Positions 7,599-37,770 of a stretch of 64,000 nt of DNA are shown here, piece by piece. The stretch comes from Sandaracinobacter neustonicus (GTDB lineage: Bacteria > Pseudomonadota > Alphaproteobacteria > Sphingomonadales > Sphingomonadaceae). The stretch is from positions 186,001 through 250,000 of the forward strand of contig NZ_VFSU01000024.1 in NCBI RefSeq assembly GCF_006385875.1, written 5' to 3'. How positions within the stretch are numbered: position 1 is the first letter of the stretch; each line of letters starts with the position of its first letter. The notes under the pieces were generated by a model that saw only the letters and a program-made list of their open reading frames with translations, ran no database searches and was not told the DNA's origin. The translations under genes were made by a program, and so were the position numbers.

Positions 7599-7686
7599 GT
7601 CACCCCGGACTTGATCCGGAGGGGGGGCGCTTCATCTTCCAACGTTGCCGAAGAACAGCGGGACCCCGGATCAAGTTCGGGGTGAC
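7599..7686. repeat. Inverted pair of REP-like palindromes
   Basis: The left element (7599-7620) reads GTCACCCCGGACTTGATCCG and the right one (7658-7686) is its inverse, reading GGACCCCGGATCAAGTTCGG then GGTGAC. They are diverged relatives of the three identical palindromes around the GIY-YIG gene at 15 kb. Confidence 0.8.
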
Positions 7687-7722
7687 GTGCGGAGATTTAA
7701 CGGAAAAACAAGGAATGCGGGT

Positions 7723-10700: not shown

Positions 10701-14944
<4,244 letters not shown>

Positions 14945-14953
14945 CCCCACAAC

Positions 14954-14983
14954 GTCACCCCGGGCTTGACCCGGGGTCCAGCT
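14954..14983. repeat. REP-like palindrome A
   Basis: A 30-bp element beginning GTCACCCCGGGCTTGACCC and ending GGTCCAGCT. Its core CCCCGGG-CTTGA-CCCGGGG folds into a hairpin. It is identical to palindrome C and is the exact reverse complement of palindrome B. It lies 14 bp beyond the stop codon of the GIY-YIG gene. Confidence 0.9.
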
Positions 14984-14996
14984 TTTCTTCTCAGCC

Positions 14997-15302
14997 TCAC
15001 CGCATAGCCAGTTCCTCATACAGATCACGCCAATCCGGGTTCGCTGCCTCGATCAGCTCGAACTTCCACGCCCGCTGCCAGCGCTTGATCCGCTTTTCCT
15101 GCGCGATACAGGCCCGCATATCCGGCCCCCGTTCCGCCCACACGAGCCGGTTCAGCCCGTAACGAATACAGAAATCCGAGCCTTCCCCATTGCGATGCTG
15201 AAGAACCCGCGCGGCGAGATGCGACGTCACGCCGACATAGATCGTGCCGTGATAGCGGTTGGCCATGATGTAGACCCAGCCGCCGTGTTGCTCGCGATCC
15301 AT
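14997..15302 (-). CDS. Small GIY-YIG nuclease family protein
   Basis: A 101-residue single-domain GIY-YIG protein. The signature appears as WVYIMANRYHGTIYVGVT (VYI and YVG in place of GIY and YIG), followed by the conserved arginine in LAARVLQHR and the metal-binding glutamate in AQEKRIKRW. There is no zinc finger, UvrC domain or helicase, so this is a free-standing nuclease, not UvrC. The family includes homing endonucleases and structure-specific nucleases; the function of small standalone members is not established. The gene is bracketed by two 30-bp palindromes that are exact inverse copies, with a third copy 51 bp beyond. This suggests the gene and the repeats move or evolve together. 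Confidence 0.88.
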   Translation of the reverse strand: MDREQHGGWVYIMANRYHGTIYVGVTSHLAARVLQHRNGEGSDFCIRYGLNRLVWAERGPDMRACIAQEKRIKRWQRAWKFELIEAANPDWRDLYEELAMR

Positions 15303-15321
15303 AGGGCGGAGGGTGAAAGAC

Positions 15322-15351
15322 AGCTGGACCCCGGGTCAAGCCCGGGGTGAC
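15322..15351. repeat. REP-like palindrome B (inverted relative to A)
   Basis: It begins AGCTGGACCCCGGGTCAAG and ends GGTGAC, the exact reverse complement of the element at 14954-14983. It lies 19 bp upstream of the GIY-YIG start codon, so the gene sits inside an inverted repeat pair. Confidence 0.9.
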
Positions 15352-15402
15352 GAAAAGAGGAGTTTCCACGGTTACGATTATAGCGCGGCAGTTCCTCAAT
15401 CC

Positions 15403-15432
15403 GTCACCCCGGGCTTGACCCGGGGTCCAGCT
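15403..15432. repeat. REP-like palindrome C
   Basis: An identical copy of palindrome A in the same orientation, 51 bp beyond palindrome B. Together B and C form an inverted doublet, similar in layout to REPIN structures. Confidence 0.9.
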
Positions 15433-15457: not shown

Positions 15458-16420
15458 CTACAAGCTGTCGATCTGCCACCCGCGCCCCGCTGTTTCCCGC
15501 CTTGCGCCGCGCAGCGCGGCGCGGCGATTTGCAGGCGCGTCCTTGCGGAACAGCAGCACTGGCCATTCGCGGCGCGGGGAGCGGTTGATCAGGGTCAGCC
15601 CTTGCGCGTGGTAGGCGGCGATCACCTTCCCGGCCTGCGGTTGCAGCAGCCCGGCGAGGATCAGATGCCCGCCGCGCGCCACCACGGCGGAGACGGACGG
15701 GGCCAGCGCCACCAGCGGGCCGGCCAATATGTTGGCGAACACCAGATCATAGGGCGCGCGGCCCGCGATCAGCGGATGCTCTACGCCGGGGGCTGCCAGC
15801 AGGCTGATCGCGCCCGCGCCGCGCCCCAGCGGCACACCGTTCAGCCGGGCGTTTTCCACCGCCACTTTCGCGGCCACCGGGTCCAGATCGGCCGCCGTCA
15901 GCCGGGCTTTCGGGAACAGCTTGCGCGCGGCGAAGGCGAGCAGGCCCGAGCCGGTGCCCACGTCCAGCACATTGCGTTTGCTGCCTTGCTTCGCCAGCCC
16001 GGCCGCCATGGCGATGCAGCCCGCCGTGGTGGCGTGCTGGCCGGTGCCAAACGCCAGCCCCGCGTCGATGCGGATTGGCCATTGCCCCGGCTTCTGCCCG
16101 CCCTGCGCTTCTCCGGTGTGCACATGGAAGCGGCCGATATCCACCGGCTCCAGCCCGGCTTGCGACAGCGTGACCCAATCCTCATCCGGCAACAGGGAGA
16201 CGCTCGGCGCGGCCGCCGATGACGGGGCGAGCGCCGCGAAGGCCGCCAGCAGGTCCGCGCCCGGCTCCTCCTCGTGATACAGCCGCAGTTCCCAACCGTC
16301 CGCCGTTTCGGCAGCGGCAAGGCTGGGCATCGGCTCTGCGCCGGGGAAGGGATCGTCCAGCAGCGCGGCCATGTCCGCCTCGGCACGCGAACAGGGCAGG
16401 GTGGCGAGCCAGCTGCTCAT
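15458..16420 (-). CDS. prmA: Ribosomal protein L11 methyltransferase
   Basis: A 320-residue SAM-dependent methyltransferase expected to trimethylate ribosomal protein L11. SAM-binding motif I is VLDVGTGSGLLAFAA, preceded by the family signature DAGLAFGTGQHATT, and motif IV is FANILAGPL, typical of PrmA. The start at 16420 overlaps the stop codon of the upstream kinase gene (ATGA), so translation is coupled to the pnuC-kinase pair. The C-terminal extension past residue 290 is Arg/Ala-rich. PrmA is dispensable in E. coli, and pairing with NAD salvage genes suggests only shared transcription. Confidence 0.94.
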   Translation of the reverse strand: MSSWLATLPCSRAEADMAALLDDPFPGAEPMPSLAAAETADGWELRLYHEEEPGADLLAAFAALAPSSAAAPSVSLLPDEDWVTLSQAGLEPVDIGRFHVHTGEAQGGQKPGQWPIRIDAGLAFGTGQHATTAGCIAMAAGLAKQGSKRNVLDVGTGSGLLAFAARKLFPKARLTAADLDPVAAKVAVENARLNGVPLGRGAGAISLLAAPGVEHPLIAGRAPYDLVFANILAGPLVALAPSVSAVVARGGHLILAGLLQPQAGKVIAAYHAQGLTLINRSPRREWPVLLFRKDAPANRRAALRGARRETAGRGWQIDSL

Positions 16421-16938
16421 GCCTGCACCCGCAGCGCGGCTTCGATGGCGGCTTCGGCTGCCGCCTTGCGCCCGGCCCATGTGCCGGAAATCACTTGCGG
16501 TTCGATCCCGCGCGCCTTGAATTCCGCCAGCACCAGTTCATGGAAGCGCTGCCGCTGCGTGTCCTGCCCGAACATGCGCACCGGGTCTGCGACGAAGGGC
16601 ACATCGGGCAGCAGCAGCAGGTGCAGGTCTGCCCGGCTGGCGCGGCTCGCAAGGATGGGGTCGCGCGCGCCGAACAACATGCTGGCCCACACCGTGGTCA
16701 TCACGATGTCGGTATCCTCGATCAACACCGGCGGGTTGGCGGCGGCGGCCTGATCGGCGGCGATCTCATGCCCCTCGGCGATGGCGTAATGATCTTCCAG
16801 CGTGAGGTCGCGGCGCAGCCGTTCCGTGTAGGTGCGGCCGAATTCCGGCACCAGCAGCCCGCGATATTGCTTCGCCAGCATCGCCGCGAGGGTGGATTTC
16901 CCCACCGATTCCACCCCAGACAAGACCACCCGCAGCAT
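16417..16938 (-). CDS. NadR-like ribosylnicotinamide kinase (AAA ATPase)
   Basis: A 173-residue P-loop protein matching the C-terminal kinase domain of NadR, without the N-terminal regulator and adenylyltransferase parts. The Walker A is GVESVGKST (residues 8-16, K14), followed by PEFGRTYTE and LIEDTDIVMTTVW, both typical of ribosylnicotinamide kinases. It probably phosphorylates imported nicotinamide riboside to NMN. It overlaps pnuC by one base upstream (TGATG) and prmA by four bases downstream. The transporter neighbour strongly supports the NAD salvage role. Confidence 0.88.
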   Translation of the reverse strand: MLRVVLSGVESVGKSTLAAMLAKQYRGLLVPEFGRTYTERLRRDLTLEDHYAIAEGHEIAADQAAAANPPVLIEDTDIVMTTVWASMLFGARDPILASRASRADLHLLLLPDVPFVADPVRMFGQDTQRQRFHELVLAEFKARGIEPQVISGTWAGRKAAAEAAIEAALRVQA

Positions 16939-37723: not shown

Positions 37724-37749
37724 TCACCCCGGATCAAGTCCGGGGTGAC
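37724..37749. repeat. REP-like palindrome
   Basis: CACCCCGGA-TCAAG-TCCGGGGTG (37725-37747) is a perfect hairpin related to the palindromes at 7.6 and 15 kb. As at 7.6 kb, it lies shortly after a 153-bp repeat copy. Confidence 0.8.
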
Positions 37750-37770
37750 GGGTGGAGAACATCGGGTAGC

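Follow-up and report, generated by a model that had tools for sequence, protein, structure and literature searches.

One of the systems closest to the locus described here is that of the RAYT genes and the GTAG-tagged REPs, reportedly described by Nunvar in 2010. In the available part of a later study, the RAYT gene lies beside its own REP type, inverted doublets of the REP spread, and gene and repeat coevolve (Bertels and Rainey 2011, PMC3116915). The CGTC-tagged REPs form a superfamily that is mainly alphaproteobacterial and has Neisseria dRS3 as its family 1 (Di Nocera, De Gregorio and Rocco 2013, PMC3733652). The available part of that survey reports no dedicated transposase for these repeats, only fortuitous associations with transposase genes, and no RAYT gene flanked by CGTC REPs. 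The term GIY-YIG has 0 occurrences in the survey (PMC3733652). Among the matches listed in the open-licence PMC literature, no paper links GIY-YIG to bacterial REPs; the papers with both words concern, by title, restriction enzymes, mitogenomes, casposons and eukaryotic transposons. The words nuclease, RAYT and transposase do not occur in the available part of the 2025 RepRanger paper (PMC12306157).

The window analyzed is a 64,000-nucleotide stretch of the Sandaracinobacter neustonicus genome. It has a stand-alone GIY-YIG nuclease gene at positions 14997–15302 on the minus strand, which starts with ATG and encodes 101 aa. The gene is located between LigA (12767–14944) and a PrmA-like methyltransferase (15458–16480, minus strand), the latter with a best score below the family cut-off. 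Together with its flanking hairpins it forms a unit of 400 bp (14953–15352) that reads CGTC-hairpin-CCAGCTTTT, the GIY-YIG gene and CAGCTGG-hairpin-GACG. The end before the gene is CGTC-hairpin-CCAGCTTTTCTTC, and the end after it is an inverted copy with CCAGCTGTCTTTC as its inner end. The REP on the stop-codon side (14953–14977, plus strand) has an 8-bp stem, a 5-nt loop (CTTGA) and a CCA tail. The REP on the start-codon side (15328–15352, minus strand) is its exact inverted copy. A third exact REP (15402–15426, plus strand) has the orientation of the stop-side REP, and beyond it there is no tagged partner among the hairpins listed. The 21-nt core ACCCCGGGCTTGACCCGGGGT is exact at window positions 14957 (+), 15328 (-) and 15406 (+), and the CGTC tag and CCA tail are present on all three copies. 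Folding as single-stranded DNA gives each copy an 8-bp stem and a 5-nt loop, with z values of -3.2 to -3.5. The 31-nt stretches at 14953–14983, 15322–15352 and 15402–15432 are identical once oriented, and the exact inverted palindromes that an earlier note on this DNA had placed around a 101-codon GIY-YIG gene are real. The third identical copy in that note is likewise an exact match, but it follows 49 bp after the end of the second 31-nt copy and not 51 bp.

These repeats are the published CGTC-tagged REPs, a family that the earlier note had overlooked. They are like CGTC REP family 2, as it appears in the available part of the survey (PMC3733652), in the CGTC tag, the 8-bp stem, the 5-nt loop, the CCA tail and the head-to-head dimers. 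The first two stem pairs here are A-T and C-G, whereas the family given in that part of the survey almost always has A-T at both. A further difference from the CGTC REPs in the same part of the survey is that the repeat brackets a GIY-YIG gene. As with RAYTs, GTAG REPs and REPINs (available part of PMC3116915), there is a gene next to its cognate REP, there are inverted doublets, and there is coevolution. The enzyme, however, belongs to the GIY-YIG family (PF01541) and not to HUH/Y1 (PF01797), and the tag is CGTC and not GTAG as in the RAYT/GTAG REPtron. As judged from sequence comparisons, the gene and its two flanking hairpins probably form one mobile unit, in which the GIY-YIG protein would be the dedicated enzyme of CGTC-tagged REPs, as RAYT is for GTAG REPs. 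The protein may act by cutting or copying the hairpins.

The window protein is a bare GIY-YIG domain (Pfam PF01541, E 1.6e-11, 44.8 bits against a curated cut-off of 22.6), and the 26 homologs in the alignment all reach this family at E 0.001. Residues Y11, Y22, R32, H36, E69 and N88, which we take to be the GIY-YIG active site, are invariant in these 26 proteins of the order and in a second set of 25. There is no match to NCBIfam, PHROGs or PADLOC at E 0.001 and none in the phage collection; a defence role is unsupported here because no PADLOC or PHROG family is matched at that threshold. The predicted structure has a mean pLDDT of 89. In Foldseek its best match is UPF0213 protein BH0048, followed by Slx1 and UvrC, none at E 0.001. 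Two solved proteins in all match by sequence, 1zg2 (BH0048) and 1ywl (EF2693), the first of which is also the best fold match. To our knowledge, no REP association has been described for UPF0213 and other small GIY-YIG proteins. Current annotations of the gene family are GIY-YIG nuclease family protein, hypothetical protein and excinuclease subunit. In AP027312.1 and other records a small GIY-YIG gene is labelled excinuclease ABC subunit C, which is probably a misannotation.

The host genome is 3.65 Mb in size, and the window lies on its contig C24. The core, with up to three mismatches, is present in 146 copies in the genome, many of them as inverted doublets, and a reversed control pattern gives 0. 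The window itself has 5 such copies, and 100 dinucleotide-shuffled versions of it have 0. The dominant REP of the genome, ACCCCGGACTTGATCCGGGGT, is distinguished from that of the gene by a paired change of G-C to A-T in the stem. The exact variant that adjoins the gene is found only 4 times in the genome, and 3 of these are at the gene locus. The two remaining window copies, at about 7.6 and 37.7 kb, had been regarded as diverged relatives of the gene's REP; they belong instead with the dominant type. The copy at 7663–7687 (minus strand) is near that type and has 3 mismatches to the gene's REP core. The copy at 37726–37750 (minus strand) is of the dominant type and is close to the solo symmetric form, because GATG stands where CCA is expected. 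The CCA tail is present on 27 of 37 host-genome REPs examined and the solo symmetric form is seen in 5 of the 37. Many inverted pairs have cores 58–60 bp apart. In 12 doublets inspected all spacers are 37–39 bp, and six of these have exactly CCAGCTG and CCAGCTT at the inner ends, as in the gene unit, the others being near variants.

The gene unit is single in the host genome, and no Y1 transposase (PF01797) match is found there. No gene was found flanked by the dominant REP type, and a dominant-REP pair 314 bp apart (C24:66714 and 67028) has no gene remnant between its members. Other GIY-YIG genes in the genome are one on contig C18 and one in a 643-aa frame on contig C11, the latter presumably UvrC. 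No tagged hairpin is listed near either, the second small GIY-YIG gene of the genome (L001/L295) included, and C11 ends close to its gene.

At E 0.001 a homolog is present in 123 of 197 genomes of the order, with up to 8 per genome and a total of about 318 (sum of per-genome counts). Flanks were compared at 110 loci from 81 genomes. The sample is not random: it consists of the 30 top matches returned and 80 loci picked by hand down the list of about 318, a choice that favours high scorers. A tagged hairpin facing the gene, with the tag outward, is found at 89 of the 110 loci (start side 80, stop side 78, both sides 69), and 21 loci have none. At 96 of the 110 loci the flanks (150 bp on each side) share an inverted 18-mer match of 15/18 or better; this is so for 6 of 330 control placements elsewhere within those loci and for 71 of 326 pairings of flanks from different loci. 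Matches of this quality in direct orientation occur at 52 loci, as expected because the stems are palindromic. Under a strict rule, with GTC directly before the hairpin, 70 loci have hairpins on both sides, 19 on one side and 21 on none; the unit length in the 70 two-sided loci has a median of 388 bp and a range of 363–581 bp. Perfect 8-bp hairpins with loops of 4–5 nt number 189 within 150 bp of the 110 genes, and 163 of them carry a CGTC, TGTC or CCTC tag, which points outward in 122, inward in 40 and both ways in 1. More than 400 bp from the genes in the same loci there are only 26 perfect hairpins, 4 of them tagged. Outward of the tag, the flanking sequence has no more than a weak C/A bias. 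A suspected motif outside the REPs shows no enrichment: it is found at 24 of 158 ends (31 on the opposite strand), compared with 70 of 527 control windows and 16 of 158 shuffled ends. At one locus (L110, G024:C5:159053 and 159631) two equal-scoring homologs lie in tandem, 578 bp apart.

The hairpins differ between loci, and they do so together with the protein. The loop is 4 nt in 45 and 5 nt in 44 of the 89 loci with tagged hairpins. Its length is the same on both sides in 69 of 69 two-sided loci, compared with 153 of 336 pairings of sides from different genomes. The outer stem arms of the two sides have a mean identity of 0.93 against 0.63 and are the same in 42 of the 69. On a 110-row protein tree, loop class requires 5 changes compared with about 30 in shuffles, and 0 of 500 shuffles are as low; either side alone gives a similar picture, with 5 changes for 80 start-side loci and 4 changes for 78 stop-side loci. 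Resolution of the tree is poor (10 of 107 inner branches are starred) and near-copies aid clustering, so the figure of 5 should be read as a strong association rather than as a number of events. Between genomes, the more alike two proteins are, the more alike are their hairpin stems (Mantel 0.271, against 0.152 for the best of 999 permutations, from the 80 of 110 loci whose paired hairpins are at least 70% alike). One genome (G121) has 8 homologs, and the five examined have five different REP types. Because gene and matching repeat change together across many bacteria, the GIY-YIG gene is probably the long-missing mover of one great REP family.

The number of REPs per genome also follows the gene. 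Abundance was determined in the 197 genomes of the order, and counts include the REP copies at the genes themselves. Type A, defined as GTC plus either stem variant with 1 mismatch, is present in 68 of 123 gene-positive and 12 of 74 gene-negative genomes (Fisher p 4e-8). It reaches at least 5 copies in 41 of 123 compared with 2 of 74, and its Spearman correlation with gene number is 0.52. Type B is found in 38 of 123 gene-positive and 7 of 74 gene-negative genomes. Type C is present in 9 of the 197 genomes, from five genera, and in 7 of these 9 a gene is flanked by type C. The other two are G187, with homologs (read in part), and G128, with one copy and no homolog. With gene presence alone type C has no significant association (8 of 123 compared with 1 of 74, p 0.16), and for this type only the match between the gene's flank type and the genome's REP type is telling. 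The proposal of the earlier note that a small GIY-YIG nuclease is the RAYT counterpart in a non-RAYT REP system is supported by both comparisons, as most homologs are flanked by palindromes and palindrome abundance tracks the gene across the order.

The gene-repeat rule is not absolute, since some genomes rich in REPs lack the gene, among them one from the genus of the window. Four genomes (G059, G128, G166 and G190) have 9–31 REP copies and no homolog; G166 has a Y1 transposase. The congener G198 has 329 copies of the gene's REP type (counted with up to 2 mismatches; for the most part the listed ones are exactly the variant beside the gene), and no GIY-YIG homolog was found in it. Two of its contigs, C2 and C4, begin no more than 15 bp from a REP (15–38 and 2–25), so gene units may have been lost in assembly gaps. 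Loss of the gene after a REP burst would look like the gene-free G198. The reverse is seen in congeners G197 and G199, which have homologs and only 4 and 6 copies of the gene's REP type; these homologs are flanked mostly by other REP types or different stems.

The REP-rich genomes without the gene would also fit a different arrangement, in which RAYT or other transposases move the REPs. The GIY-YIG protein would then be a hairpin resolvase, either host-side or parasitic, by which the REPs are tolerated, trimmed or controlled, and gene and repeat would cotravel through substrate dependence. The predicted fold resembles Slx1 (Foldseek probability 0.82–1.00, no match at E <= 0.001), a GIY-YIG nuclease that, according to the available part of PMC6902002, cuts branched DNA. 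Slx1 differs in being eukaryotic, Slx4-dependent (same source) and larger, and the fold match is weak (E 0.037–0.55). Type B is linked to RAYT as well, with p 0.048 in the order and 0.001 in the family. This arrangement is nevertheless unlikely. A Y1 transposase is found in only 36 of the 197 genomes and is unrelated to type A (p 0.45); 28 gene-positive RAYT-free genomes have at least 10 copies of the three tested REP types together; the available part of the CGTC survey reports no RAYT gene flanked by these REPs (PMC3733652); and the GIY-YIG gene is itself a repeated unit.

Relatives that lack the unit at a given site, which the earlier note had suggested looking for in sister strains, exist in Sphingobium, in Azospirillum and at the window locus in congeners. 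In Sphingobium plasmids the unit is located between fnrL and a response regulator and is matched in 7 records, of which 4 were read. In one of the strains with a filled site, TomTYG73 (L289), the gene is frame-shifted and unannotated. Five Sphingobium are without the unit, namely TomTYG64, TomTYG74, TomTYG72, TomTYG65 and S. herbicidovorans. At the site of the unit TomTYG64 (L284) has a single CCGTC-hairpin-GACGG, TomTYG74 (L285) has the variant CCGTC-altered hairpin-GACGA, and TomTYG72 (L286) and TomTYG65 (L287) have other palindromic repeats. In S. herbicidovorans no such palindrome is present in the stretch inspected. Since other repeats occupy the site in sister plasmids, it may be an insertion hot spot.

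At the window locus the gene is absent between ligA and prmA in five congeners, and homologs in the genus lie elsewhere. The gap has a single CCGTC-hairpin-GACGG in G198 (L257), a CGTC-ATCCCCGCG-like palindromic pair of a different REP type in G201 (L258) and a GC-rich tandem array in G197 (L255), and is too diverged in the congeners to display a pre-insertion site. The solo palindromes at L257, L284 and L285 look like excision or deletion scars. In Azospirillum lipoferum 4B the gene is found in sufB-sufC between two REP doublets and not inside one. At this site A. ramasamyi, A. oryzae and A. thermophilum have neither the gene nor a visible REP in the stretch inspected, and a fourth relative, B510, has a different inserted sequence.

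The different repeats at one Sphingobium site in different strains are also what passive hitchhiking would produce, where REP-rich intergenic spaces are soft landing sites in which a small selfish or housekeeping nuclease gene ends up. REPs are known IS insertion targets, as given in the available part of PMC1525189. Hitchhiking is most improbable, however, in light of the agreement in loop length between sides (69/69) and its tie to the protein tree, the different REPs carried by paralogs within one genome, the conserved inner ends, and the three of four gene-free Azospirillum relatives that show no REP in the stretch inspected.

Evidence consistent with mobility of a unit with its cognate nuclease comes from type C and from genome G091. 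Eight type C units in seven genomes have common ends and inner borders, and their outer flanks differ by eye. Nine type C doublets of G051 agree with the gene units in having GGCT after one REP (in 8) and AGCC before the other (in 9). Genome G091 contains four gene units, one of them with an internal stop, and their proteins are 83–99% alike. The same genome has two internally deleted units between the same hairpins (242 and 226 bp between hairpin starts, compared with 343 bp) with gene remnants inside. The four similar units contrast with RAYTs, which according to the available part of PMC3116915 are single-copy and do not seem to move by themselves. In G091 the shared sequence extends about 25 bp past CGTC on the start side, so the moving unit there may exceed the REP-to-REP segment. 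Defined inverted ends, an internal gene and deleted derivatives are properties in common with insertion sequences and MITEs; near-identical copies at several sites, another such trait, occur in G091 and not in the window's genome. Unlike these elements no target-site duplication is seen, and the sites compared gave no close enough clean pre-insertion site. We know of no bacterial insertion sequence with a GIY-YIG enzyme.

GIY-YIG is a known homing endonuclease fold, and presence or absence of the unit at fixed sites fits a homing-type gene drive, in which the nuclease would cut unit-less chromosomes and propagate through recombinational repair, with the REPs serving only for recognition or as joints. 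Three of the 26 aligned members have a weak match to a group I intron endonuclease model. Site-specific homing leaves unexplained the units at several sites in one genome (G091) and the spread of short doublets without a gene, and a drive of this kind is very unlikely. The combination of gene, repeat and site patterns makes a mobile unit with its cognate nuclease the best reading.

In the mechanism proposed, the protein would recognise the CGTC foot and the hairpin, extruded as a single strand or a cruciform, and nick there. REP-gene-REP units and short REP doublets (REPINs) would thereby reach further intergenic sites, by copying or by transfer. On this view the doublets derive from gene units, are non-autonomous and have kept little more than the two ends, and solo palindromes of the form CGTC-hairpin-GACG may arise from loss of the DNA between identical stem arms of a unit or doublet. 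It is somewhat more tentatively, yet still favourably, proposed that this is a new class of mobile element, with a GIY-YIG nuclease of about 100 residues as its transposition or replication enzyme, and that bacterial CGTC REPs, including Neisseria dRS3 and the alphaproteobacterial ones, derive from it as non-autonomous elements, every REP type being matched to a nuclease lineage of its own. If so, an enzyme has been found for one of two large REP superfamilies, REP systems arose at least 2 times with unrelated enzymes (HUH and GIY-YIG), and a widespread gene now annotated only in general terms has a function. The different protein-hairpin pairs within one genome represent a ready test set for hairpin recognition.

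The association extends beyond the order. The best 80 named loci of at least 566 candidates are from many phyla and include many metagenome-assembled genomes. Among the 76 with full flanks, 45 have an inverted flank match of at least 15/18, compared with 11 of 240 controls, and hairpins on both sides are present in 54 of the 80 compared with 24 of 240 controls. Pseudomonas sp. P818 has a homolog and lacks the dRS3-type pattern. Photobacterium (L170) and R. tumorigenes (L172) have hairpins of the CGTC-REP kind on one side only. In Neisseria gonorrhoeae (NZ_CP119140.1, L171:1282–2179) a homolog is located inside a cluster of ATTCCCGC-type, ATTCCC-N8-GGGAAT repeats. This pattern has 174 matches in the Neisseria record and some in 11 of 12 genomes or records tested. 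The locus is in keeping with the statement, in the available part of the survey, that dRS3 is a CGTC-1 REP (PMC3733652). The plasmid collection gave 33 matches, of which 10 records were taken, that of Neisseria gonorrhoeae among them. A homolog with 9-bp-stem repeats is present in Sinorhizobium meliloti, and Novosphingobium aromaticivorans plasmid pNL2 carries a homolog with type C REPs.
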